Assembly (NCBI GenBank): GCA_021845825.1
Contig: JAJZVF010000004.1
Location: 1 to 45,522 of the forward strand
DNA length: 45,522 nt
Source of the DNA: Pseudomonadota bacterium
GTDB taxonomy: Bacteria; Pseudomonadota; Gammaproteobacteria; Steroidobacterales; Steroidobacteraceae
Reading direction: 5' to 3'
Positions 28,884 to 45,522 of this stretch are shown in pieces. The position numbers and the translations under genes are program-made. Positions within the stretch are counted from its first letter, which is position 1; every line of letters begins with the position of its first letter. A model generated the notes under the pieces. The model was not told the DNA's origin. It saw nothing but the letters and a program-made list of their open reading frames with translations, and ran no database searches.

Positions 28884-29748
28884 CCTCAGCCTCATCAACA
28901 ACGCCAAACTCGAGGCCCTCGCCCGGCCGGTGCAGGTGATCGCCGTCACCGGCGGCAAGGGCGGAGTCGGCAAGACGAGCGTCTCGGTCAATCTCGCCAC
29001 GGCACTCGCCGCGCGCAAGCGCGTGGTGCTGCTCGACGGGGACCTCGGCCTGGCCAACGCCGATGTGTTTCTCGGCCTCTCGCCGCGCTATACCCTGGCG
29101 CACGTCATCGGCGGCGAGCGCACCATCGACGAGGTGCTGATCCGCGCGCCCCAGGGCTTTCAAGTGGTTCCGGCCGCCTCGGGCGCGGCGGACCTCGCCG
29201 TCATGGGCGCCGCCGAGCACCTCGGACTGGTGCGCGCATTCAGCTCCCTCGCCGCGCAGATCGATGTGCTCATCGTCGACACCGCCGCCGGCATCGCCCA
29301 GGGCGTGCAGCAGTTCTCCCAGGCCGCGCAGCACGTCCTGGTGGTGATCTGCGACGAGCCGGCCTCGCTCACCGACGGCTACGCGCTCATCAAGGTGCTG
29401 AGCCGCCAGCACGGCGTCAACCGCTTCCGCGTGCTCACCAACCGCGTGCGCGGCCCCGGTGCGGGCCGCGAGCTGTTCGAGCGCTTCGAGCGGGTCACGA
29501 CCCGCTTTCTCGAGGTGGTGCTCGAATTCGCCGGCGAGGTTCCCGAGGACGAGTACCTGCAGCGTTCCGTGCGCGAGCAGCGACCGGTCTGTGAGGTCTA
29601 CCCCGCCAGCCCGGCCGCCCGGGCGTTCAAGAAACTGGCGGACGCGGCCGATACATGGCCAGTACCGCCCGGTCCGCGCGGGAACATCGAGTTCTTCGTG
29701 GAGCGGCTGGTGCGGCGCAACCCCGCGCGGCTGGCGGTCGTGTCATGA
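28870..29748 (+). CDS. flhG: MinD-like flagellar number regulator FlhG (FleN)
   Basis: FlhG limits flagellar number by acting on FlhF and, in Pseudomonas and Vibrio, on FleQ/FlrA. The 292-residue product is a deviant-Walker ATPase: GGKGGVGKTS near residue 30, LLDGDLGLANADVFLG, and VLIVDTAAGIAQGVQQF. The ATG at 28870 overlaps flhF by 14 bases. A C-terminal amphipathic helix region (EFFVERLVRRN) could bind membrane. Because the FleQ-like protein here lacks its N-terminal domain, how FlhG would act on it is open. Confidence 0.96.
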   Translation: MPTPDLSLINNAKLEALARPVQVIAVTGGKGGVGKTSVSVNLATALAARKRVVLLDGDLGLANADVFLGLSPRYTLAHVIGGERTIDEVLIRAPQGFQVVPAASGAADLAVMGAAEHLGLVRAFSSLAAQIDVLIVDTAAGIAQGVQQFSQAAQHVLVVICDEPASLTDGYALIKVLSRQHGVNRFRVLTNRVRGPGAGRELFERFERVTTRFLEVVLEFAGEVPEDEYLQRSVREQRPVCEVYPASPAARAFKKLADAADTWPVPPGPRGNIEFFVERLVRRNPARLAVVS

Positions 29749-30476
29749 ATGCCGCAAGCGCCTACGGGGCACCGCGCCCGCACTGGGAGGCGGGCAATGC
29801 GCGCGAACTCGTGACGCGGCACGCGGAGCTGGTCAAGCGCATCGCCTACCATCTGGCTGGCCGCCTGCCGCCCTCGGTGGACATCGATGACCTGCTGCAG
29901 GCCGGGATGCTCGGGCTGCTCGAGGCCGCCTCGAACTACGCCGCCGACCGGGGTGCGAGCTTCGAGACCTACGCCGGGATTCGCGTCCGCGGAGCGATGA
30001 TCGATGCGCTGCGCAAGCTCGACTGGGCGCCGCGCTCGGTGCACCGCAAGGCGCGGGCGGTGGCGGCGGCGGTGCAGGACATCGAGCGGCGCACGGGACG
30101 CGACGCGCGCGATACGGAAATCGCCGAGCGGTTGGGTGTGCCGCTCGAGGAGTATCACACCATCGTGCAGGACGCGGCGAGCTGCCGCCTGGCGGCGCTC
30201 GATGATGCGGCGGTGACCGTGGAGGGGGAGGCGGATCCTTTCCTCGAGACCGCCAACGAGGAGTTCAGGCAGGCTCTGGCGCGGGCCATCGACGGTCTGC
30301 CCACAAGGGAGAAACTGGTGATGTCGCTCTACTACAGCGAGGGCTTGAACCTCAAGGAGATCGGCGCGGTGCTCAAGGTGACCGAGTCGCGCGCCTGTCA
30401 ACTGCACGGGCAGGCGCTCGTGCGGCTGAAAGCGCGGCTGGCGGAATGGCGCGAGGCGCCGCAGCGGCAGGCATAG
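29745..30476 (+). CDS. fliA: Flagellar sigma factor FliA (sigma-28)
   Basis: FliA directs RNA polymerase to late flagellar and chemotaxis promoters. The 243-residue product has region 2 ([20 protein letters not shown] and [22 protein letters not shown]), region 3 ([13 protein letters not shown]), and region 4 ([23 protein letters not shown], then [13 protein letters not shown]). The start overlaps the flhG stop (ATGA). Candidate target promoters lie at 33875-33901 and 44042-44067. No flgM gene is in the window. Confidence 0.98.
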
Positions 30477-33866: not shown

Positions 33867-33874
33867 CGCGCGCC

Positions 33875-33901
33875 TCAAGAGCCGCGGGCGTACGCCGATA
33901 G
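33875..33901 (+). promoter_or_regulatory. FliA (sigma-28) promoter candidate before the STAS-cheA genes
   Basis: TCAAGAGC, 11 bases, GCCGATAG matches the sigma-28 pattern TMAAGTTT-N11-GCCGATAA in its key positions with exact spacing. The predicted start near 33908 is only about 5 bases before the STAS ATG at 33913, so that message would be almost leaderless. Confidence 0.65.
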
Positions 33902-33912
33902 CCCATTCGATC

Positions 33913-34287
33913 ATGAAATCTCGCACTCGATCGACCCCGGCGCGCAAGGCCGGGCGCGGCCGCACTGCGCGCGCCGCTTCGCCTCCCCGCGCCCGAGCGG
34001 GCAAGTCCGGCGAGCTCACGCTGAATGCCGACTGCACGCTGGCGCAGGCGGCGCGGCTGAAGACCTCGCTCGGCGGGCTGCTCGCCGAGCCGCAGACGGT
34101 CACGCTGGATGCCGGCGCCGTGCAGCGCATCGACACCGCGGCGCTGCAGCTCCTCGCGGCCTTCGTGCGGGACCGGCGCCTCCTCGGGCACTGCACCCAA
34201 TGGCGGGGCGCGCAACAGACGTTGGCGCCCGCCGCGCGGCTGCTCGGCATGGAGGGTGTGCTCGAGCTCCCGGGAGAGAGCCGATGA
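33913..34287 (+). CDS. STAS-domain protein upstream of cheA
   Basis: STAS domains act as anti-anti-sigma-like partners in phospho-switches. The 124-residue product has a 33-residue Arg/Ala/Ser-rich basic tail, then a single STAS domain (about 35-122). In that domain the segment RIDTAALQLLAAF places Thr where SpoIIAA has its phosphorylated Ser. No ribosome site is visible, in line with the near-leaderless promoter. The stop overlaps the cheA start (ATGA), so the two are translationally coupled. STAS genes before cheA are known in other proteobacterial chemotaxis clusters; the role here is not known. Confidence 0.85.
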   Translation: MKSRTRSTPARKAGRGRTARAASPPRARAGKSGELTLNADCTLAQAARLKTSLGGLLAEPQTVTLDAGAVQRIDTAALQLLAAFVRDRRLLGHCTQWRGAQQTLAPAARLLGMEGVLELPGESR

Positions 34288-36419
34288 CCGTCGACCTGAC
34301 GCAGTTTCACGCCGCCTTCTTCGAGGAGAGCTTCGAGGCGCTCGACGCCATGGAAGCGGCGCTGCTGAAACTCGATATCGGCGCCCCGGACCCGGAGCTG
34401 ATCAACACCATTTTTCGGGTGGCCCATTCGATCAAAGGAGGCAGCGCCACTTTCGGCTTCAGCGACATCGCCTCCTTCACCCACAGTCTCGAGACGCTGC
34501 TCGATGAGCTGCGCAGCGGCGGCATGCCGGTGACGGCGGCGGTATCGGATCTGCTGCTGAAGTCGGTCGACGTGCTGCGCGTCATGCTGCGCGCCGTGCA
34601 GAGCAAGCAGCCCATCGACGCCCAGCGCGTCTCGGACCTGCAATTCGACCTGGAAGTGACGATCGCGCGCAAGCGCGAATCCATCGCGGCCGAGACCGCC
34701 CGCGCCCCGGCGCCCGCCCTCACGGCCTCCTCGGACGGGGTGCCGGCGGCAACGGCCGATGCCCCGGCCCCCGGCACCGAGGCGCGACGCTGGCGGATCC
34801 ACTTCCGCCCCTTTCGCGAGCTGCTGGCGCGCGGCAATGACCCGGTGCGCATGCTGCGCGAGCTTGCCGGGCTCGGCGGACTCGAAGTACGGATCGACAT
34901 CCAGGCTCTGCCGCCCCTCGCCGACATCAATCCCCAGGAGTGCCATCTGTCCTGGACGCTCGAAGTCCCCGGTGAAGTTCCCGAAGAGGCGATCCGCCAG
35001 GTGTTCGACTGGGCCGAGGGCGACTGCGACCTCGCCGTAGAGCGAGTGCCCCCGGCGCCCTCGACGGCTGCGGCGGCGGACGCGGCGCAGTCCGCCCCGC
35101 AACCGCAGATCCCCGCCGACAGCACCCGCTCGCCGGCGCCGCAAGCGGCCGCGCTCGAGCCGCCCGCCCTCACACCGGCGCCGGCGTCACCGTCCCCATC
35201 GGCGCAGCCGCGCCCCGAGGCCACCCTGAGCGCACCAGGGGACTCCGGCTCGATCCGCGTCAGCGTGGAGAAGATCGATGAGCTGATGAACAGCGTCGGT
35301 GAGCTGGTGATCACCCAGGCGATGCTGAGCCAGCTCGGCGCGCAGACCGAGGGCCCGCAGGCCGAGCGGCTGCGCGCGGGACTGGCGCAGCTCGAGCGCA
35401 ACATGCGCGAGCTGCAGGAGAGCGTCATGCGTGTGCGCATGCTGCCGATCAGCTTCGTGTTCAGCAGATTCCCGCGCATGGTCCGCGACCTGGCCCAACG
35501 TCTCGGCAAACAGATCGAGCTGAAGCTCACCGGCGAGCAGACCGAGCTCGACAAGACGGTGCTGGAGAAGATCGGCGATCCGCTGGTCCATCTGGTGCGC
35601 AACTGCATCGATCACGGCATCGAATCCCCCGAGGTGCGCCTCGCCGCCGGCAAGCCTGCCGCCGGTACCGTGCACCTCGACGCCAGCCACCGCGGCGGCA
35701 ACATCTCCGTGGAGGTGAGCGACGACGGCGGCGGCCTCGACAAGACGCGCATCCTCGCCAAAGCTCGCGCGCGCGGCCTGATCGGCGCCAACGAGACACT
35801 GGGCGACGCGCAGATCTACGAGCTCATCTTCCTGCCCGGCTTCTCCACTGCCGAGAAGACCACCGACCTGTCGGGCCGGGGCGTCGGCATGGACGTCGTG
35901 CGTCGCAATGTCAAGGAGCTCGGCGGCAAGATCGAGCTGGCGAGCGAGCCCGGCCGCGGTTCGCGCTTCACCATCACCCTGCCGCTCACGCTCGCCATCG
36001 TCGACGGCCAGTCGGTGGCGGTAGGGAGCGAGACATATATCGTGCCGCTCATCTCCATCGTCGAATCGATGCAGCTGAAGCCGACAGGCATCAATCGGCT
36101 GTCCGGCCGGGGCGAGGTGTTCTCCTTCCGGGGCGACTACCTGCCCATTCTGCGCCTGCACGCGCTGTTCGGCGTAGAGCCGCACACGCGCGCCCTGGAC
36201 GAAGGACTGGTGGTCGTGGCCGAGGGCGACGGCCGCCGGGTGGGGCTGTTCGTCGACGATCTGCTCGGCCAGCAGCAGGTGGTGATCAAGTCCCTGGAAG
36301 CCAATTACGGGCATATCGACGGCATCTCCGGCGCAACCATCCTCGGGGACGGCTCCGTGGCGCTCATTCTGGATGTCCCCGGCCTGATCCGCGCCGCCGA
36401 CATGCGCGCGGCGGCCTGA
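34284..36419 (+). CDS. cheA: Chemotaxis histidine kinase CheA
   Basis: CheA phosphorylates CheY and CheB in response to receptors. The 711-residue product has P1 (1-110) with phospho-His H48 in FRVAHSIKGG, and a middle domain (about 165-253, RIHFRPFRELLARGNDP) in the P2 position. A long Pro/Ala linker leads to P3 dimerisation (about 322-390) and then P4: N box VHLVRNCIDHGIE near 435, G boxes DDGGGLD and GRGVGMDVV. P5, the CheW-like end (about 572-705), follows. No CheB gene is in the window, though the P4/P5 layout is complete. It is the only cheA here. Confidence 0.98.
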   Translation: MTVDLTQFHAAFFEESFEALDAMEAALLKLDIGAPDPELINTIFRVAHSIKGGSATFGFSDIASFTHSLETLLDELRSGGMPVTAAVSDLLLKSVDVLRVMLRAVQSKQPIDAQRVSDLQFDLEVTIARKRESIAAETARAPAPALTASSDGVPAATADAPAPGTEARRWRIHFRPFRELLARGNDPVRMLRELAGLGGLEVRIDIQALPPLADINPQECHLSWTLEVPGEVPEEAIRQVFDWAEGDCDLAVERVPPAPSTAAAADAAQSAPQPQIPADSTRSPAPQAAALEPPALTPAPASPSPSAQPRPEATLSAPGDSGSIRVSVEKIDELMNSVGELVITQAMLSQLGAQTEGPQAERLRAGLAQLERNMRELQESVMRVRMLPISFVFSRFPRMVRDLAQRLGKQIELKLTGEQTELDKTVLEKIGDPLVHLVRNCIDHGIESPEVRLAAGKPAAGTVHLDASHRGGNISVEVSDDGGGLDKTRILAKARARGLIGANETLGDAQIYELIFLPGFSTAEKTTDLSGRGVGMDVVRRNVKELGGKIELASEPGRGSRFTITLPLTLAIVDGQSVAVGSETYIVPLISIVESMQLKPTGINRLSGRGEVFSFRGDYLPILRLHALFGVEPHTRALDEGLVVVAEGDGRRVGLFVDDLLGQQQVVIKSLEANYGHIDGISGATILGDGSVALILDVPGLIRAADMRAAA

Positions 36420-36444: not shown

Positions 36445-36975
36445 ATGGCAACCCAAACAACATCCGAGCAGCAGCAGAGAGCCCCTGACAGCTCCCAGGT
36501 ACTCACCTTCGTGCTCGGCAACGAGACCTACGGGGTCGACATCCTGCGCGTGCAGGAAATCCGCGGCTGGTCGGCGGTAACCAAGATTCCGCACGCCCCC
36601 GCCCACGTGCTCGGCGTGCTCAACCTGCGCGGCTCAATCGTGCCGATCGTCGACCTGCGCATGCGCTTCGCTCTGGAGCGCGCCGAATACACCGCGGTCA
36701 CCGTCATCATTGTCATGTCGGTGGTCACTGCATCCGGACGCAGGGACTTCGGCGTAGTCGTCGACGGAGTCTCCGACGTGGTCGACGTAAATTCCGCGGA
36801 GATCAAACCCGCGCCCGAGCTCGGTACGCGCGCCGCCATCGATTACCTCCTCGGGCTGGTCTCGATCGCGGAGCGCATGGTCGTGCTGCTCGACATCGAC
36901 CGGCTGATCGGCCGGGATCTGGGCGTGTTACCGGGCGGCACCGAGGCGGGCTCGCCGGCCGCCGACGCGGCCTGA
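36445..36975 (+). CDS. cheW: Chemotaxis coupling protein CheW
   Basis: CheW links receptors to CheA. The 176-residue product begins with about 18 polar residues, then the CheW fold: [20 protein letters not shown], the conserved [21 protein letters not shown], and [18 protein letters not shown] site precedes the ATG. It lies 25 bases after cheA and 11 bases before the first receptor gene. Confidence 0.97.
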
Positions 36976-36986
36976 TCGGGGAAAAC

Positions 36987-38375
36987 ATGGACAGTCTGAA
37001 AAATCTCTCGCTGCGCGCGAAGATGCTGCTCGCCTTCGCCGCTCCGGCCGCCATCCTCGGCGCTGCGGCGCCCTTCGGCAGCTGCGGGCTCACCGTTGGG
37101 CTCACCGCGGCAGCGGTGCTCGGCGGCGGCGCATTCGCCTTCCTCACCGCTTGCTCCGCGGATGGCGCGCTGAGGCGCGCGACGGCGGCCGCTCGCTCGT
37201 TGAGCGAGGGCCGGATCGAGGACGCGGTACCTGCCGAGGTGACCGGCGGATTCGCCGCCCTGTCGAGCGCCCTCGAGTCGCTGCGCACCACGCTGCGCAC
37301 GCACAGGGATGAGACCGCCGCGGAGCGCGCGCGCTGGGCCGCGGCATCCGGGCAGGTCACGGTATCGCCCGAGAGCAGCGCCGCACAAACGCGCCTCGCC
37401 GAGCAGGTGCAGCGCGCGGCGGCGGCGACCCGCGAGACGGTCGAGGCGGCCGCGCAAGGGGACTTGCGCCGGCGCCTCGACACCGCGCTCGACAGCACGG
37501 GGCTGCGCTCCATGGCCGAGGACATCAACTCCCTGCTCGACAACATCTCGGCCATGGTCGCCGAGATCAAGGCGACTTCCGCGCAGGCCCGGCGCGCGGC
37601 CGAGGAGATCTCGAGCGGCAACGAGAATCTCTCGCAGCGCACCGGGGAGCAATCCTCCTCGCTCGAGGAGACGGCCTCGTCCATGGAGCAGATGACCACC
37701 ACGGTCAAGCAGAACGCGGACAATGCCTCGCAAGCCAACCAGCTGGCGCTCGCCGCGCGCGGGCAGGCGGAGAAAGGCGGTGTGATCGTCAACCAGGCGA
37801 TCACCGCCATGTCGGAGATCAATCAGGCTTCGCGCAAGATCGCCGACATCATCGGCGTCATCGACGAGATCGCCTTCCAGACCAACCTCCTCGCGCTCAA
37901 CGCCGCCGTCGAGGCGGCGCGCGCCGGCGAGCAGGGCCGCGGCTTCGCCGTGGTGGCGAGCGAGGTGCGCAGCCTCGCGGGGCGCTCGGCCACGGCCGCC
38001 AAGGAGATCAAGGGCCTCATTCAGGACAGCGTGCGCAAGGTCGAGGACGGCTCGGCGCGGGTCAGCCAATCGGGCCACACGCTCGAGGAGATTGTCGCCT
38101 CGGTCAAGAAAGTCTCCGACATCGTCGCCGAGATCGCCGCGGCCTCCCGCGAGCAGTCCGCGGGCATCGAGCAGGTGAACCGCGCGGTGATGCAGATGGA
38201 CGAGCTCACCCAGCAGAACGCCACGCTCGTCGAGCAGGCGACGGGGGCGGCGCGCAACATGACCGCTCTCACCCATGGCCTCAATCAACGCATGGAGCGC
38301 TACCGGCTCGTGGAGCGGCCGCAATCTGCCGCCGGCGATGCCGGGACGCGGCGGCGCGCGGCCGTCGGGGGCTGA
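36987..38375 (+). CDS. Methyl-accepting chemotaxis protein without a periplasmic sensor
   Basis: The 462-residue receptor has two closely spaced hydrophobic segments (about 13-58) and no ligand domain between them, so it cannot sense in the periplasm by itself. A HAMP-like helix region follows (about 60-110), then a Tsr-like signalling domain. Methylation-helix sequence [14 protein letters not shown], and the tip [20 protein letters not shown]. There is no C-terminal CheR-docking pentapeptide (it ends RRRAAVGG). It may sense membrane or internal energy state, or act as a helper in mixed arrays (inference). Its signalling DNA is nearly identical to that of the third receptor gene. Confidence 0.95.
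37836..38054 (+). repeat. Near-identical receptor tip segment, copy 1
   Basis: This 219-base stretch differs from 42903-43121 at only 4 positions by direct comparison, including silent sites. The corresponding part of the second receptor gene (from 40343) is more divergent. Confidence 0.85.
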
Positions 38376-38380
38376 TCGAC

Positions 38381-40888
38381 ATGCCCAAACTGACGCTCAA
38401 CCACCTCAGGCTCTGGCAGAAGCTCACCGTGCTCGTGCTGGCGATGAGCCTGCCGGCCATGCTGGTCGGATTCTTCTATTGGCATTCCGCGAGCGACAGC
38501 CTGCGCCAGGGGCGCGGTGAGCTGGCCGGCATCCGCTATCTGAGCGGCATCGGAGCGCTTCAGACGGCGCTCGTGACCCGGGAAGGCCGGGCGTTCGCGC
38601 TGGCAAGCGGCGACCGCGCCGCCAGGGCGGCGGTGTCCGCCGCGCAGCGGCGCGTGACCGGGGCGCTGCGGCGCCTGGCCGCCACCAACGCCAGGCTCGG
38701 GGAACGCTATGGGGTCAGGCGGAACTTCCGCGCCATCGAGAGGCAGTGGGCCGCCGTCGGGCGCGTGACCCGACCCGCCGGGCGGGTGGTCACGGCGAAC
38801 GCAGCGCTCCTCGCCCGTCTCGGGCGCCTGAGCGATGCGGTGGCCGCCGGCGCGCGGATCAGCTCCGATCCGGACCAGGAGACGCGCAGCCTGGTGCAGA
38901 TCGTTGCGCACTATGCGCCGGCCGCTCTGGCGGACGAAGCGGCGCTGCGCCGCTACGCGGAGGACGCGGCCGCGAAAGGCTACCTGGGCGGAGAGGATGG
39001 GATGGGCATCCGCATCGCCCACGCCCGGCTGCTCACCGACCTCGAGATGATCCGGACCGCGCTCGGGCAGGTGCCCCCGCAACGCGCCCGTGCGCTGAGC
39101 GATGCGTTACGGCGCGCGAGCCGGCAGGCACATGCCTACTATGCCACCGTCACCGCGCAAGTCCTCGATGCCAACGACCTGAAGATCAGCGTCGGCGCGC
39201 TGCATGCGGCGGGTCGGGACGCCCGCGTCGCCTTGAGCGGGCTGCTCGGCGCGAGCAGCGCGGCGGCCGCCGCTGCGCAGAGAGCCCGGGTCGCCGCCCT
39301 CAGCGCCAATCGCGATCTCAGTCTTGCGCTGGTGCTGATCGCCATAGTCCTGATCCACGCGCTCACCTGGACGACGGAGCGCTCGCTTACCGGGCCGATG
39401 AAGCGGGCGGTCGCGGTTTTCGAGCGCATCGCCGCCGGGCACTACGACAACGATGTCGAGGCGGACCGCACGGATGAGCTCGGACAGGTTCTCAAGGCGC
39501 TCGATGCCATGCAGGTGAAGCTGCAGGCGCAGATCGAGCACGAGCGTGCCGTGGCCGCCGAGAACTCGCGTATACGTCAGGCGCTCGATAAGACCTCCAC
39601 CGGCGTGCTGCTCGCGGACGCCCAGCACCGGATCATCTACGTCAACGAAGCCGCCGAGGCCGGCTTCACCCGCCACGCCGCCGAGCTGCGCCGCAGTCTG
39701 AGCGGATTCGATCCGGCGAAGCTGCGCGGCGCGGGCCTCGAGACGCTGTCGAGCTCGCCCGCGCAAGAGCGCCGTGCGCTCGATGATCTGCACGCCGTGC
39801 GCACCGAGGAGCGCACGTTCGGAGCGCTCAATTTCCGCATCACCACCACTGCGGTGACGGGCGAGCGCGGCGAGCGCCTGGGCACGGTGATGGAGTGGAG
39901 CGAGCGCACGCAGGAGGTGCGGGTGGAGCAGGAGCTGCAGGGCGTGCTCGCCGCGGTGAACGGCGAGGACCTCAGCCGGCGCATCGCGCTCGAGAACAAG
40001 GCGGGATTCTTCGCCTCGCTCGGCGCCGGAGTCAACCGCCTCGCCGACAACCTCGCCGAGATCGTCGCCGGAGTGAAGGGAGTCGCGCGGGAGATTCTGC
40101 TCGGCGCCGAGGAGATTGCCACGGGCAACTCGAGCCTCTCGACCCGGACCGAAGAGCAGGCTTCCTCGCTCGAGGAAACCGCCTCCTCCATGGAGCAGAT
40201 GACCACCACCGTCAAGCAGAACGCCGACAACGCCGCCCAGGCCAACCAGCTGGCCCTCGCCGCCCGTGATCAGGCCGAGCAGGGCGTGGCGGTGGTCGGC
40301 AAGGCCGTGCAGGCGATGAGCGGCATCGACGAGTCCGCGCAGAAGATCGCCGACATCATCGGTGTCATCGATGAGATCGCCTTCCAGACCAACCTCCTCG
40401 CGCTCAACGCCGCCGTCGAGGCGGCGCGCGCCGGGGAGCAGGGCCGCGGCTTCGCCGTGGTCGCGAGCGAGGTGCGCAGCCTCGCAGGCCGCTCGGCCAC
40501 CGCCGCCAGGGAGATCAAATCCCTGATCGAGGACAGCGTGAGGAAGGTGGCGGACGGATCGCAGCTGGTCACCGACTCCGGGCACACCCTCGGGGAGATC
40601 GTCGCCTCCGTGAAGAAGGTCTCCGGCATCGTCGCCGAGATCGCCGCCGCCTCGCGCGAGCAGTCCGCGGGCATCGAACAGGTCAACCGCGCCGTGATGC
40701 AGATGGACCAGATCACCCAGCAGAACGCCGCGCTGGTGGAGGAGACGATCGCCTCCGCCCAGGTCATGACCGGCAAGGTGCGCGATCTTAACGAGACGCT
40801 GGGGCACTTCAAGCTCGGCGAGGGCGAGAGGCGGGCCGCGCAGCCGGCCTGCGACCCGCCCAAGGCAGCCGTCGGCGAGAGCCGGTGA
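38381..40888 (+). CDS. Methyl-accepting chemotaxis protein with helical sensor and PAS domain
   Basis: The 835-residue receptor has a first membrane segment at about 16-36, an all-helical periplasmic sensor (about 37-310), a second segment at about 312-331, HAMP (about 332-385), and a cytoplasmic PAS-like domain (about 397-515, GVLLADAQHRIIYVNEAAE). A Tsr-like signalling domain follows (about 560-815) with [13 protein letters not shown] and [20 protein letters not shown]. The sensor resembles long helical types such as NIT, but the ligand is unknown. It lacks a pentapeptide (it ends VGESR). It is a paralogue of the next gene (shared LWQKL-V-V-AM-P opening). It starts 5 bases after the first receptor gene. 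Confidence 0.95.
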   Translation: MPKLTLNHLRLWQKLTVLVLAMSLPAMLVGFFYWHSASDSLRQGRGELAGIRYLSGIGALQTALVTREGRAFALASGDRAARAAVSAAQRRVTGALRRLAATNARLGERYGVRRNFRAIERQWAAVGRVTRPAGRVVTANAALLARLGRLSDAVAAGARISSDPDQETRSLVQIVAHYAPAALADEAALRRYAEDAAAKGYLGGEDGMGIRIAHARLLTDLEMIRTALGQVPPQRARALSDALRRASRQAHAYYATVTAQVLDANDLKISVGALHAAGRDARVALSGLLGASSAAAAAAQRARVAALSANRDLSLALVLIAIVLIHALTWTTERSLTGPMKRAVAVFERIAAGHYDNDVEADRTDELGQVLKALDAMQVKLQAQIEHERAVAAENSRIRQALDKTSTGVLLADAQHRIIYVNEAAEAGFTRHAAELRRSLSGFDPAKLRGAGLETLSSSPAQERRALDDLHAVRTEERTFGALNFRITTTAVTGERGERLGTVMEWSERTQEVRVEQELQGVLAAVNGEDLSRRIALENKAGFFASLGAGVNRLADNLAEIVAGVKGVAREILLGAEEIATGNSSLSTRTEEQASSLEETASSMEQMTTTVKQNADNAAQANQLALAARDQAEQGVAVVGKAVQAMSGIDESAQKIADIIGVIDEIAFQTNLLALNAAVEAARAGEQGRGFAVVASEVRSLAGRSATAAREIKSLIEDSVRKVADGSQLVTDSGHTLGEIVASVKKVSGIVAEIAAASREQSAGIEQVNRAVMQMDQITQQNAALVEETIASAQVMTGKVRDLNETLGHFKLGEGERRAAQPACDPPKAAVGESR

Positions 40889-40943: not shown

Positions 40944-43658
40944 ATGCGTCTTCTAAACCGTCTGAAGCTGTGGCAGAAGCTCGGTGTGCTGGTGGTGGCC
41001 ATGGCGGTGCCGACCGCTCTGCTCGGGTTCTTCTACCTGAGCGCCGCCAACCACGAGGTGTCCCAGGCGCGCAACGAGCTCGACGGCGCCCACTACGCGC
41101 ATCGCCTCGGCGCCGTGCTGGCCGAGACTTCCCAGCACCGCAGCCTGCTGTTTGCCCTGCTCACCGGGGACTCGGCGCAGTCCGGCGCCGTGGCCGCCTC
41201 CGAGGCGCGCATGCACAAGCTCCTGTCCGCAGTCGACGCCGTCAACTCCGCCGTGGGCGCCAGGCTCGGCGTCACCCGCCAGTGGCGGGCGGTGAAAGCC
41301 GGTTGGGCGGCGCTCAAGAGCGGTGAGTCGAAGATGACCGCGGATCAGGCGGCGGCGCAGCACGATGCGCTCATCGCGAGAATCGTCGGCCTCGGCCGGC
41401 TCGTGGTCGCCCGCTCCGCGCTCAACGTCGATCCCTCGCCGCAGACCGCAGCGCTCATCCGCGTCGCCACCCGGGATGTTCCCGACGCGCTGATCGCCTC
41501 AGGCGAGGTGCAATGGTACGCGACCAGCGCCGCAATCAAGGGGTATCTCGGCGGCGGCGACTCACGGGCGATCGAGATCTACCACCGGCAGGTGCTCGAG
41601 GATTTCACCCGGGCGAGGCACGACTTGAATGGTGCCTCGCACGCGGCCCGCGCCCGGATCCGGCCGATGCTCACATCGGCGCTCGCCGCGTTCAATGCCT
41701 CGTTCGACCTCATCCGCAGGCGCGTGCTGAACGCGCACAAGATGACCGTCACCACCGCGGCACTGTTCGCCAATTCGCAGTCCGTCAACGCCGGCCTGCA
41801 GCGGCTCCTCGACGCCAGCTACTCGGCCATGGACGCCGCCGTCAAGCATCGGCTCTTGCAGGTGAGCGCCGCGCGCGCCCTCGCCGTGGGGGTGACGCTG
41901 GCGGCGCTGCTGAGCGCCGTCGCCCTCTCATGGTTCATGGCGCGCGCACTGGCCGCACTCATCGCCCAGGCGATCACGGTCTTCGAGCACATCGCGGCCG
42001 GCCGGTACGACAACCGGATCGAGCTCAACGGATCGGACGAGGCCAACCAGGTGCTGCGTTCCCTCGAGGAGATGCAGGGGAAGCTGCGCGCGCAGATCGA
42101 GACCGAGCGGCTCGTCGCCACCGAGAACGCCCGCATCCGCCAGGCGCTCGACAGCGTCTCCGCGGGCGTGATGGTGGCCGACGCCGCCTCGAGCATCATC
42201 TACCTCAATCCGGCGGTCGGCAAAATCCTGGCGGCGGCCGAGCAGGACATCCGGCAGGACCTGCCCGGATTCAGCGCCGCGAGCATTCGCGGCTCGAGCC
42301 TGGAGCTCTTCCGCCGCGAGCGCGCGCAACAGAGGAGCCTCGGCGACCATCCTTCGGGCACGCAGCGGACCGACCTGGTGCTCGGCGGACATTCCTTCGC
42401 GCTCACTTTCAATCCGGTCGAGAGCGCGGGCGAGCGCATCGGCACGGTGGTCGAGTGGCAGGATCGCACACAGGAAGTGGCTGTCGAGAAAGAGATGCAG
42501 GACATGCTCGCGGCCGTGACCGCCGGCCGGCTCGGCCAGCGCATCGCAACGGACGGCAAGAGCGGCTTCTTCGCAGTCATGAGCTGCGGAGTCAACCGCC
42601 TGGCCGACAACATGGTCCAAGTCGTCGCCCGGGTCAAAGAAGTGGCCGACGAAGTGCACCGGGGAGCCGACGAGATCTCCGCCGGCAACGCCAATCTGTC
42701 CCAGCGCACCGAGGAGCAGTCCTCCTCGCTCGAGGAGACGGCCTCCTCCATGGAGGAGATGACCACCACCGTCAAGCAGAACGCGGATAACGCCGAGCAG
42801 GCCAATCAGCTGGCGCTTACCGCCCGCGAGCAGGCCGAGAAGGGCGGCTCGGTGGTCGGCCAGGCGGTGGCGGCGATGTCCGATATCAACCAGGCCTCGA
42901 AGAAGATCGCCGACATCATCGGCGTCATCGACGAGATCGCCTTCCAGACCAACCTCCTCGCGCTCAACGCCGCCGTCGAGGCGGCCCGCGCCGGCGAGCA
43001 AGGCCGCGGCTTCGCCGTGGTGGCGAGCGAGGTGCGCAGCCTCGCGGGGCGCTCGGCCACCGCCGCCAAGGAGATCAAGGGCCTCATTCAGGACAGCGTG
43101 CGCAGGGTCGAGGACGGCTCGATCCTGGTGACCGAGTCCGGCCAGACGCTGGCAAAGATAGTCGCCGCGGTGAAGAAAGTCTCGGACATCGTCGCCGAGA
43201 TCGCCGCGGCCTCCCGCGAGCAGTCCGCCGGCATCGAGCAGGTGAACCGCGCGGTGATGCAGATGGACGAGCTGACGCAGCAGAACGCCGCGCTCGTCGA
43301 GCAGGCCACCGCCGCCTCCCAGGCCATGGTCGAGCAAGTGCGCGGTCTCAACGAGATGCTCGCCCGCTTCGACGTGGGTGATACGTCCGCCAAAGAGCCG
43401 GCTGCGGCGGCGAGCCGCACCGCAACGGGAGGACGCGGCACGAGCCGTGTGCCGCCGGCGGCAGGCGGCGCCAACAGCGCCCGCAATGCCACGGCGCCAC
43501 GGGCGGAGCGGCGCAGGGCCAACCGGCCCTGGGCGCAACGCCCGGCCGCCGGTCCGACCGTCACGCCGCCGGTGCAGGGCGCGCCGCGGCTTGCCGCCGT
43601 CTCCTCGGGCGGCATCCACCCCGCCGCCGCCGAGGAGGCCGAGTGGGAGGAATTCTGA
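40944..43658 (+). CDS. Methyl-accepting chemotaxis protein with CheR-docking C terminus
   Basis: The 904-residue receptor has membrane segments at about 13-32 and 312-332, a helical periplasmic sensor between them, HAMP, a PAS-like domain (about 396-510, [19 protein letters not shown]), and a Tsr-like signalling domain (about 555-810). A flexible Ala/Pro/Arg-rich tail of about 90 residues follows and ends in EWEEF. The final five residues fit the xWxxF pattern of the CheR/CheB docking peptide (NWETF in Tsr). cheR lies 1.4 kb downstream. It is the only one of the three receptors with this motif. Confidence 0.95.
42903..43121 (+). repeat. Near-identical receptor tip segment, copy 2
   Basis: This is the partner of 37836-38054, in the same orientation about 5.07 kb away, with 4 differences in 219 bases. 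Similarity continues with more differences to about 43310. Confidence 0.85.
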
Positions 43659-43694: not shown

Positions 43695-44057
43695 ATGGCA
43701 CGGATACTCGCGGTAGACGATTCGGCGTCGATGCGCCAGATGGTGGGCCTCACCCTCACGGGCGCCGGCCATGAGGTGCAGCAGGCCGCCGACGGTGTGG
43801 AGGCGCTGCAGATCGCCGAGCGCAAGACGTTCGACCTCGTCATCACCGACGTCAACATGCCGAACATGGACGGCATCACGCTGGTACGCGAGCTGCGCGC
43901 CCGGGCGAGCTACCGGTTTGTGCCCCTGCTCGTGCTCACCACAGAGGCCACCGTCGAGCGCAAGCAGCAAGGCAAGGCCGCCGGCGCCACCGGCTGGCTG
44001 GTCAAGCCGTTCAATCCCGAGCGGCTGCTCGCCACGGTCAGCAAAGTGCTCAGTTGA
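43695..44057 (+). CDS. cheY2: Second CheY-like single-domain response regulator
   Basis: The 120-residue receiver has D8/D9, phosphoacceptor D52 (ITDVNMPNMDG), the Thr in VLTTEA, and KPF. The start ILAVDDSASMRQMV is that of CheYs encoded next to receptors and CheA, different from the flagellar CheY at 30542. It could be a phosphate sink or a second motor ligand (inference). A GGAG site lies about 10 bases upstream. It follows the third receptor gene by 36 bases. Confidence 0.95.
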   Translation: MARILAVDDSASMRQMVGLTLTGAGHEVQQAADGVEALQIAERKTFDLVITDVNMPNMDGITLVRELRARASYRFVPLLVLTTEATVERKQQGKAAGATGWLVKPFNPERLLATVSKVLS

Positions 44058-44067
44058 TTGCCGATTT
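44042..44067 (+). promoter_or_regulatory. FliA (sigma-28) promoter candidate before the secreted-protein gene
   Basis: CAAAGT (44042-44047) and GCCGATTT (44060-44067) resemble TAAAGT and GCCGATAA. The spacing between CAAA and GCCG is 14 bases, one short of the ideal 15. The predicted start near 44074 leaves a 23-base leader with a GAGG site. Confidence 0.45.
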
Positions 44068-44096
44068 CCCTCATACACATGCCACGAGGTTTTTCC

Positions 44097-44426
44097 ATGC
44101 AAGCACCCAAAGTCCTCGCCACCCTGGCGATCGCCTGCGCCGTGAGCGCGACTGCCTACGCGAACTGCCGACTGCCGACGGCCCCCAGCAAGATTCCCGA
44201 CGGCGCCACCGCGAGCCAGCAGCAGATGCTCACGGCCATGCAGACCATCCAGGAGTACAACCACGACGTTCAGACCTATCTGAAGTGCCTCGACTTCGAG
44301 GTGCGCCAGAACCAGATGAGCTCGGACCATCAGGCGAGCCTGCACAACGCCGCCGTCGATCAATTGAAGCGCATTGCCGCCGAATTCAACAGGCAGGTCG
44401 TGATTTTCAAGTCCAAGCACAGTTGA
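44097..44426 (+). CDS. Small secreted protein of unknown function
   Basis: The family is not recognised. The 109-residue product has a clear signal peptide (MQAPKVLATLAIACAVSATAYA), predicted to be cut before NCRLP. The mature part of about 87 residues is helical, rich in Gln and Asn, with two cysteines (one right after the cut site and one in YLKCLDFE) that could form a disulfide. The first Cys follows N, not a lipobox, so it is probably not a lipoprotein. The ATG at 44097 has GAGG 8 bases upstream. A FliA-like promoter lies just before it, which would make it a late flagellar gene. Confidence 0.8.
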   Translation: MQAPKVLATLAIACAVSATAYANCRLPTAPSKIPDGATASQQQMLTAMQTIQEYNHDVQTYLKCLDFEVRQNQMSSDHQASLHNAAVDQLKRIAAEFNRQVVIFKSKHS

Positions 44427-44552
44427 GCCGCGCCTGCGCCCGCACGCTGATTCGACGCCCGCGCTCGCCTCCGGCGGCCCGCACCGCAGGCGCCGCGAAG
44501 GCTCAATCAAGCGTGCACCCGCGCTGTGTGGTTCCGTAGCGATGGCCAGAGG
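44427..44552. other. Gap between the secreted-protein gene and the CheZ-like gene
   Basis: These 126 GC-rich bases show no clear promoter or terminator. The first 27 codon-aligned bases before 44553 could belong to the next gene if its GTG at 44526 is used. Confidence 0.4.
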
Positions 44553-45026
44553 ATGACGCGACACACACACATACCCCCGCCACAGGCCGGCGCCCCCTGC
44601 GTGCCCGGCCGGCCGCCGGCCGAGCTGGTCCGCTCCGCGGAAACCTCAGCCGCGCTCATAGAGCTTGCGATCAGCGAATCGCGGCGGCCCGTCGAGACGC
44701 TCGCGGAGGCGCTGCGGCGCATCTCGGCGGCGAGCGCCGCCGGCGAGCGCCCGATCGCGGCGGACGTTGCAGCCTGCGTCGAGAGTCTGCAGTTCCATGA
44801 CCGCATGATTCAGCAGCTCACGCATGTGCGCGATCTGCTGGCCGGCGTCGCCGCGGCGGCGCCGGCGCGGCCGGACCTGCCGGGCTGGCCGGCGCTGCGC
44901 GAAGCGCTGCGCTCGCGCTTCACCTCCGAGTCGCACCGGTTACTGTTCAATCTGCTGATGCCGCAGGAGGCCGGACATGCCCACATCCAGCTGCGCGCCG
45001 ACGAGGGGAGCGTGGAGCTGTTTTGA
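44553..45026 (+). CDS. Chemotaxis-cluster protein with a CheZ-like DxxxQ motif
   Basis: The 157-residue product is not assigned to a named family. It is mostly helical after a Pro-rich start. Around residue 79 it reads LQFHDRMIQQLTHVRDLL, in which D83 and Q87 are spaced as the catalytic Asp and Gln of CheZ (DLTGQ). Similar LQF-D-x3-Q helices occur in proteins encoded near cheR and receptors. It lacks the CheZ C-terminal CheY-binding tail; the end is acidic (DEGSVELF). The start is uncertain: ATG 44553 or GTG 44526. The stop overlaps the proposed cheR TTG start. Confidence 0.7.
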   Translation: MTRHTHIPPPQAGAPCVPGRPPAELVRSAETSAALIELAISESRRPVETLAEALRRISAASAAGERPIAADVAACVESLQFHDRMIQQLTHVRDLLAGVAAAAPARPDLPGWPALREALRSRFTSESHRLLFNLLMPQEAGHAHIQLRADEGSVELF

Positions 45027-45522
45027 GCGCGCGCACCGCCGTCATGGCCGATGCCGCTGCGCCGCGGCTGCGGGAATTCGCCTTCCACGAGCGGGACTTC
45101 CAGGCCCTGCGCTCGCTCGTGAAGTCGCTCACCGGCATCAATCTGACGGAGCAAAAGCGGGAACTCGTGTACGGCCGCCTGACACGACGCCTGCGCGCGC
45201 TCGGACTGAAGAGCTTCGCCGACTACCGGGAGCTGCTCGCCGGGGACGAGCGCGAGCTCACCGAGCTGTGCAACGCCATCACCACCAATCTCACCGCCTT
45301 CTTCCGCGAGCCGCACCATTTTCAGTCTCTGCGCGAGCAATGGCTCGAGCCGCTCGCCGCCGACGCGCGTGCCACCCGGCGCCTGCGCATCTGGTCGGCA
45401 GGCTGCTCGACGGGCGAGGAGCCCTACTCCATCGCCATGACCGTGCTCGAGACCCTGCCTCATCCGGCCGGCTGGGACGTGCGCATCCTCGCAACCGATC
45501 TCGACTCGGAGGTGCTGCAGCG
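45023..45522 (+). CDS. cheR: Chemotaxis methyltransferase CheR (5' part, runs off the window)
   Basis: CheR methylates receptor glutamates with S-adenosylmethionine. The open frame continues past the window end, giving about 166 residues. The N-terminal helical domain (FHERDFQALRSLVKSLTGI) is followed by NAITTNLTAFFREPHHF and the SAM-binding motif LRIWSAGCSTGEEPYSIA, then ILATDLDSEVLQ. The proposed start is TTG at 45023, with GGAG 5 bases upstream and overlapping the previous stop; the first ATG is at 45044. The beta-subdomain that binds receptor pentapeptides lies beyond the edge. cheB and cheD are not in the window and may follow. Confidence 0.95.
   Translation, partial: MSARTAVMADAAAPRLREFAFHERDFQALRSLVKSLTGINLTEQKRELVYGRLTRRLRALGLKSFADYRELLAGDERELTELCNAITTNLTAFFREPHHFQSLREQWLEPLAADARATRRLRIWSAGCSTGEEPYSIAMTVLETLPHPAGWDVRILATDLDSEVLQ

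Follow-up and report, generated by a model that had tools for sequence, protein, structure and literature searches.

The solute-binding proteins of indirect chemotaxis are large and have a two-lobed alpha/beta fold. The enterobacterial receptors Tar, Trg, Tap and Tsr, whose sensors are four-helix domains of 150–160 amino acids, sense indirectly through a periplasmic binding protein, and in phosphate taxis of Pseudomonas aeruginosa PstS stimulates CtpL, whose sensor (286 amino acids, nine predicted helices, not a four-helix bundle, fold unassigned) does not itself bind the ligand (PMC4926252). The cases of indirect sensing in the portions of PMC4926252 drawn on here use transporter-type binding proteins.

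Here we describe a small secreted protein encoded in a chemotaxis block of a Steroidobacteraceae genome. The window, by which we mean the whole stretch of DNA analysed, is 45,522 nucleotides long. Like PstS and CtpL, the candidate pair would consist of a periplasmic protein and a receptor with a large helical sensor, but PstS (36.6 kDa) is a binding protein that works for the phosphate transporter as well, whereas the candidate is an 87-amino-acid hairpin encoded with the receptor (PMC4926252). It also recalls CpxP and CpxA, in which a periplasmic accessory protein acts on a membrane sensor, although CpxP regulates a histidine kinase and the candidate is a putative chemoreceptor partner (PMC4160245). 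The sensor of the receptor mcp3, with ~276 amino acids and eight predicted helices, differs from the four-helix enterobacterial domains (PMC4926252) and in predicted fold is like the NIT domain of NasR, which also has eight helices (PMC7496416).

The secreted protein gene and its chemotaxis block

The window is one whole contig. On its + strand Pfam identifies, in order, a sigma factor (frame 29655–30476, taken as fliA from its position), a response regulator, CheZ, MotA, MotB, DUF2802, STAS, CheA, CheW, three MCPs and CheY; CheR lies downstream of the secreted protein gene, with x166 between them, also on the + strand (Table 1). The motA and motB genes are in the same cluster, ~11 kb upstream of the secreted protein gene. 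An earlier note on this DNA had placed the gene inside a chemotaxis block, and the co-directional run of cheA, cheW, three MCP genes and cheY, then x166 and cheR, bears this out. The x166 frame (166 amino acids) has a best Pfam E of 0.88 and no NCBIfam match; it is retained beside cheR in many che clusters of Steroidobacteraceae, at 29–83% identity. cheR runs on in C84, another contig of the assembly, which overlaps the window end (41 identical residues; L154, 6212–6334) and in which the genes downstream of cheR are readable. The assembly (G000) is 90.5% complete and has no flagellin match despite its chemotaxis and motor cluster, perhaps because of an assembly gap.

Table 1. Features of the window, in order of position
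Feature	Positions	Strand	Details and evidence
Likely sigma-28 promoter of the block, CTCAAGAG-N12-GCCGATAG	33874..33901	+	Score 14.9, second best of the window
STAS-domain gene	33913..34287	+	First gene after the 33874 site; Pfam STAS_2 3.7e-10
cheA	34200..36419 (frame; true start probably further in)	+	Pfam Hpt, H-kinase_dim, HATPase_c, CheW
cheW	36445..36975	+	Pfam CheW 5.3e-36
mcp1, receptor without large periplasmic domain	36987..38375	+	Pfam MCPsignal; hydrophobic segments 13-31, 35-53
mcp2, receptor with mcp3-type large sensor	38381..40888	+	Pfam HAMP, PAS, MCPsignal; sensor profile 1e-83
mcp3, large periplasmic sensor, HAMP, PAS and signalling domain	40944..43658	+	Pfam; sensor profile 4e-121
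mcp3 periplasmic sensor domain (residues 29-304), predicted NIT-like fold	41028..41855	+	AlphaFold2; alignment with NasR 4akk_B
cheY, response regulator	43695..44057	+	Pfam Response_reg 3.9e-28
Sigma-28 promoter proposed earlier, not supported	44042..44067	+	Score -2.6, chance level
Secreted protein gene	44097..44426	+	ATG 44097, stop ends 44426; 109 aa, mature 87 aa; homologues, AlphaFold2, dN/dS
Signal peptide MQAPKVLATLAIACAVSATAYA, 22 aa	44097..44162	+	Expected cleavage AYA-N; judged by eye and hydropathy scan
x166, uncharacterised	44526..45026	+	GTG start as listed, ATG 44553 also possible; adjoins cheR
cheR, cut by window end	45023..45522	+	Pfam CheR 1e-26, CheR_N 4.6e-18

The 109-residue ORF begins with a typical cleavable signal peptide, as the earlier note had claimed: by eye and by hydropathy scan, MQAPK is followed by a hydrophobic core (hydrophobic maximum at residues 6–24) and AYA-N, leaving a mature protein of 87 amino acids that runs NCRLP...KHS. 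Two cysteines had been counted. There are three, C14 in the signal peptide and C24 and C64 in the mature part, to which the count of two applies. C24 and C64 are invariant across 23 aligned sequences; when the alignment is widened to 37 rows, the second mature cysteine is still invariant and the first is retained in at least 90%. Comparison with each of the two nearest relatives gives dN/dS of 0.040/0.383 and 0.048/0.333, so the gene is coding, real and under purifying selection.

The AlphaFold2 model (37 sequences, pLDDT 96.4) predicts an N-terminal arm, a helix at 19–48 and a helix at 54–86, which together form a helical hairpin. The window protein falls below the curated cut-offs of both Pfam (best 14.3 bits versus 21) and NCBIfam (best 12.1 versus 767.75). 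The best Pfam E among the 37 members was 0.0012, with scattered matches, and no family claims the window protein or its 36 aligned relatives; none of the 37 matched NCBIfam at E 0.01. Foldseek returned nothing from the PDB at E ≤ 0.001, the best E in a sequence search of PDB chains was 0.18 (syntaxin helices), and literature searches brought up no title concerned with the protein. Structural alignment with VIA-align offered spectrin repeats and ribosome recycling factor, which we rejected as their Z (at most 9.2) is in the range of common helical arrangements.

We also considered two classes of accessory protein. As an all-helical hairpin of 87 amino acids (pLDDT 96.4), the protein does not have the two-lobed alpha/beta architecture of solute-binding proteins. 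CpxP belongs to the LTXXQ family, which has conserved LTxxQ motifs. Membership of this CpxP/Spy family was rejected: LTXXQ is not among the six Pfam families matched by the 37 members at E ≤ 0.01, and LTAMQ occurs once in the window protein, at a place that varies in the alignment (MITAMQ, MLTAMT, MLAGQK).

Residues 29–304 of mcp3 are modelled as eight helices (AlphaFold2 pLDDT 91.8). Since NasR (4akk_B) aligns with this model at Z 24.3 over 261 of 276 residues (rmsd 3.0, identity 12%; the next row scores 13.7), the predicted fold of the sensor is NIT-like, with eight helices; Foldseek matches the NasR structure at E 5e-3 with probability 1.00. Unlike the NIT domain of NasR, the mcp3 sensor has no Pfam NIT match. 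None of 26 sensor sequences matched Pfam NIT at E ≤ 0.1, no Pfam model recognises the mcp2 and mcp3 sensors, and the best E in a sequence search of PDB chains was 0.13.

Family distribution and placement beside receptors

Homologues occur in 184 of 200 genomes of Steroidobacteraceae (E ≤ 0.01), some of them without flagellin matches, in 12 of the 369 genomes searched at class level and in 6 of the 398 at phylum level (G000 in both; relatives included). Two homologue searches were made, on overlapping genome sets. The earlier note had proposed a survey of gene neighbourhoods; in the 25 genomes with the best matches (group A; one locus per genome, the window's own among them) chemotaxis genes flank the copy every time. 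The order is cheY-gene-x166/cheR in 22, as far as the contig reaches, and cheW-gene-MCP in three (L022, L024, L025). Chemotaxis genes flank 26 of the 29 matches at E ≤ 2.3e-28, and the other three correspond, by the length of their contigs and by position, to loci L036, L039 and L046 of group C. This group comprises five free-standing short loci (L036, L039, L045, L046, L047), 65–70% identical to the window protein, which have no chemotaxis genes as neighbours; by eye, DedA-type and ABC-transporter-like genes adjoin them.

More distant relatives are diverse. Group B consists of long-loop forms, sometimes in tandem, whose neighbours in the loci read by eye are glycosylase- or moeA-like; wider family members also adjoin PEPCK-like genes (by eye) or form tandem arrays (e.g., G060 C178, G085 C20). 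In fused forms the module lies within larger proteins, some with two copies. Thus, frames of ~600–700 amino acids in L265, L266, L270 and L271 (G149, G137) contain two copies of the two-cysteine module, and L262, L263 and L275 have a further stretch after it. No chemotaxis gene lies within ~1.5 kb in the 28 loci L228–L255, mostly long forms. As these long-loop and fused relatives lie away from motility genes, the family is broader than chemotaxis. Scanning 15 loci outside Steroidobacteraceae (L083–L091 and L162–L167, L162 and L086 being the same gene) found an MCP only at L166; L162/L086, L090 and L091 have only a receiver-domain or OmpA-type frame resembling CheY or MotB. In the gene tree, sequences group according to their labels (chemotaxis copies, group C, long forms); since its deep forks are unsupported, the tree is compatible with one recruitment or several. 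In five genomes of the genus (G018, G111, G166, G185, G190) the STAS locus is present, and both a nearby cheR and a chemotaxis copy are missing.

Where the receptor is readable, che clusters that contain the gene nearly always have a large mcp3-like receptor. Using a sensor profile (A4) made from 26 sequences, and calling a sensor at E < 1e-10 over at least 180 positions, we counted 24 receptor loci with the sensor (window included), 22 of which have the gene, and 14 without it, of which 2 do (Fisher 2.6e-6, kinship ignored). The sensor occurs without the gene in L196 (G007; sensor 71% identical) and L200 (G093; weaker and partial, positions 1–205), and the gene without the sensor in L257 and L258; both are absent from 12 loci (L157, L188, L195, L211, L212, L220, L221, L223–L227), with weak partial sensor matches in L220 and L223. 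Of 62 stretches, 36 were scanned for these counts, together with L257–L259 and L261 (entered because they bear the gene) and the window; three of those scanned gave no MCP row. Six of the 26 other stretches bear the gene, and their receptor is truncated or lies beyond the contig (L170, L174, L178, L182, L184, L185).

The association also holds receptor by receptor. Among 85 MCP frames of 18 gene-bearing genomes (83 of 84 listed MCP places fetched), the gene is within 3 kb of 19 of 24 frames with the sensor and 3 of 61 others, the latter made up of one weak frame (0/1) and 60 more (3/60), in which one G094 receptor is counted twice. Of the five sensor frames with no copy that near, four are paired in tandem with another receptor in an operon that does contain the gene, and the fifth is a weaker sensor of G151 (L287). 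Three arrangements are sensor-linked: MCP-cheY-gene, cheW-gene-MCP (L186, L207, L218), and a divergent gene and MCP (G116, G153 and G094, with sensor E of 4.9e-16, 4.0e-16 and 1.7e-16). G567 has two che clusters and the gene only in the one with two such sensor-bearing receptors, and in G153 and G094 the gene and sensor-bearing receptor share a contig, the CheR cluster being on a different one.

A short-form profile search of 106 flagellin-bearing genomes outside the genus yielded, beyond group A, six free-standing short copies. Five (G031, G047, G094, G116, G153) immediately adjoin an MCP or a cheW-MCP pair; the sixth (G017) follows cheR at ~3 kb and has no MCP within that distance. The adjoining receptors have the mcp3-type sensor in G094, G116 and G153 and lack it in G031 and G047. 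Because the genomes hold only one to nine MCPs, the chance of five of six short copies lying within 3 kb of one under random placement is low (~8e-10), a figure for a class (span ≤240 bp in a frame <230 amino acids) that was defined after the matches had been seen. Excluded from it were G149 C58 and C154 and G137 C368 and C295, which are domains of larger proteins (spans 237–252 bp, frames 611–705 amino acids; no chemotaxis match in L265, L266, L270 or L271); G117 C175, cut by the contig end, with no MCP in L260; G096 (255 bp); and partial matches of G158, G045, G148, G168, G061 and G113. No chemotaxis gene was found in L326, L327 or L329–L332, which hold excluded partial or long copies, and L328 has only an OmpA-type frame 36% like motB. 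Other shorter partial matches and a 267-bp copy of G129 were not treated as short. In one set of 20 stretches with copies of the gene, an MCP is beside the gene in four, cheR and cheW in one, and neither in 15. In an independent case, the phylum search found in G751, of another bacterial family, a 104-amino-acid frame 38 bp after a 516-amino-acid MCP frame on the same strand (L333, 6136–8033); the receptor has no match to the sensor profile, its sensor being of another kind. A second G751 copy has no chemotaxis gene alongside and, by eye, adjoins a tRNA-synthetase-like gene.

This recurrence beside chemotaxis receptor genes suggests that the secreted protein helps receptors to sense outside the cell. 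We lean, by a little, towards a small soluble periplasmic hairpin that acts with the NIT-like sensor of mcp3/mcp2-type receptors. One alternative, to which we give a low though appreciable probability, is that a general envelope protein, such as a small chaperone or a redox or stress module, was captured into chemotaxis operons and makes no contact with receptors. It keeps this standing because group C is not linked to chemotaxis, because the family is broad (184 of 200 genomes, some without flagellin, with moeA-, glycosylase- and PEPCK-like neighbours and tandem and fused forms) and because the rate correlation with the secreted protein does not single out the sensor: corrected values are 0.506 for motB (the highest), 0.455 for STAS, 0.390 for the PAS part of mcp3 and 0.295 for the sensor. 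However, a single capture leaves unexplained the separate receptor-side arrangements in g1/g2/g22, g5/g15, g7, g23 and G751 and the strong sigma-28 sites before standalone copies described below, and 0 of 28 loci L228–L255, mostly long forms, have chemotaxis genes nearby. It is also possible, but unlikely, that the protein is a periplasmic partner of any MCP rather than of the NIT-like sensor in particular. The copies of G031, G047 and G751, which adjoin receptors without that sensor, favour such a more general receptor role, whereas the low frequency of the gene beside other MCP frames (3/61, versus 19/24) argues against it.

Promoters of the block and of standalone copies

Sigma-28 sites were scored with a matrix built from 23 sites of 22 of 30 flagellin loci of Steroidobacteraceae (training range 19.8 to 31.5; consensus CTCAAGTT-like, 12 bases, nCCGATAC). 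Similar sites of L058, L059 and L070 were not entered, and the five other flagellin loci have no clear site or no upstream DNA. Matrix sites scoring at least 10 number 18, and those scoring at least 17 number three, in 575 kb-strands, mostly non-flagellar stretches.

The earlier note had put the gene under its own late-flagellar promoter at 44042, which is probably not real. The proposed -35 box, CAAAGTGC, consists of codons of the K-V-L-S end of cheY, which is conserved coding sequence, and stands 10 bases from GCCGATTT, not 11. The sigma-28 spacer in E. coli is N11. At the score of its best alignment, 153 window sites do equally well (1.7 per kb per strand), and only three sequences, the window and its two nearest relatives (L001–L003), have GCCGATTT at this position. 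When 29 chemotaxis rows were scored, their best sites were mostly within their shuffles. That the gene nevertheless has a promoter there, perhaps as a second one inside the operon, is improbable: GCCGATTT is a fair -10 box, and L002, L016 and L040 have sites in the corresponding position that score 3.3, 10.7 and 11.2 (L024 has one of 10.5 further upstream), but the window site scores at chance, its -35 box is coding sequence and most other copies have no site.

A better candidate start for the block is the site at 33874, in the 46-bp gap before STAS-cheA and 10.2 kb upstream of the secreted protein gene. STAS loci of the genus have a sigma-28 site in 29 of 30 cases (the window, L094, and 28 of 29 relatives; scores 9.3–19.3), L122 being the one without. 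In clusters read separately, the site is found in L156, L159 and L160, where the gene is present, and not in L155 and L157, where it is absent. As the site is conserved and the genes are co-directional, transcription most likely starts at 33874, and this promoter probably serves the whole block of ~10 kb by read-through as far as the secreted protein gene. One terminator-like site (38453) lies on the + strand between them, and on both strands there are six versus 4.2 expected. With the 33874 site upstream, the unit has the likely promoter of a sigma-28 regulon member, and the secreted protein gene would probably be reached from it. The link to late-flagellar control that the earlier note drew is supported, through the 33874 site and strong sites before L257, L261 and L215, but the promoter cited for it is not. 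The strongest sigma-28-type site of the window (29626–29654, score 20.1) falls within the 3′ end of the gene that precedes fliA, where it could possibly serve fliA autoregulation.

Among the standalone or well-spaced copies, gene-directed sigma-28 sites score 21.8 in L257 and 17.9 in L261 and L215, which are one lineage. Weaker ones are found in L024 (10.5), L259 (3.8) and L020, L021 and L023 (1.4–3.4), and L256 and L258 have none directed at the gene. A second element, GTGA-N6-TCAC, is the core of a CRP-type site. It lies upstream of 11 of 21 short copies (six divergent, five of group C and 10 of group A tested) and 0 of 7 long ones, against an expectation of 0.007–0.021 per 260 bp; the 11 copies represent four lineages (g2, g7, g23 and group C). 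The element is 40–41 bp before the -35 box in L020, L021, L023, L215 and L261 and 52 bp before it in L259. In group C (L036, L039, L045–L047) it is present and a strong sigma-28 site is absent. The window copy has no GTGA-N6-TCAC upstream.

A putative partner of chemoreceptors

The secreted protein is a good candidate for a dedicated chemoreceptor partner, above all of the NIT-like type: its gene is placed beside theirs, and the proteins may be in contact. In the mechanism that we lean towards, the mature protein would be an N-terminal arm and a two-helix hairpin, with its two conserved cysteines probably disulphide-bonded. Through transcription from 33874 it would be produced alongside the block's chemotaxis receptors, and in the periplasm it would act on the large NIT-like sensor of the mcp3/mcp2 type. 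It may belong to the sensing unit and carry or report either a ligand or the state of the envelope; alternatively, it may be a modulator of the sensor.

The earlier note had suggested receptor sensors, the stator or the flagellar rings as targets. The sensor gains support from the 22/24 versus 2/14 receptor loci, and the one clue to the motor is the top rate correlation of motB. Action on the stator (the periplasmic part of MotB) or the rings is very improbable: although motA and motB are in the same cluster as the gene, clusters L221, L224, L225 and L226 keep motB, cheA, cheW and cheR with another receptor and no gene, G153 and G094 have the gene beside a receptor away from the CheR contig, and G567 has it in one of its two che clusters only.

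Rather more speculatively, there may be a dedicated class of small, helical hairpin adaptors of the periplasm that form a composite sensor with chemoreceptors, above all NIT-like ones. The adaptor would then be the means by which the receptor senses, the pair travelling together under flagellar (sigma-28) and CRP-like control. We regard this broader proposal as tentative and, on balance, doubtful.

If the secreted protein does act with its neighbouring receptors, so small a partner, dedicated to the receptor and encoded with it, would depart from the designs described, allowing indirect chemosensing without a transport-type binding protein. It would also offer a route to the signals of a receptor type whose sensor has the fold of a nitrate sensor, and two families that lack a Pfam model, the hairpin and the sensor, would gain a joint function that can be tested.
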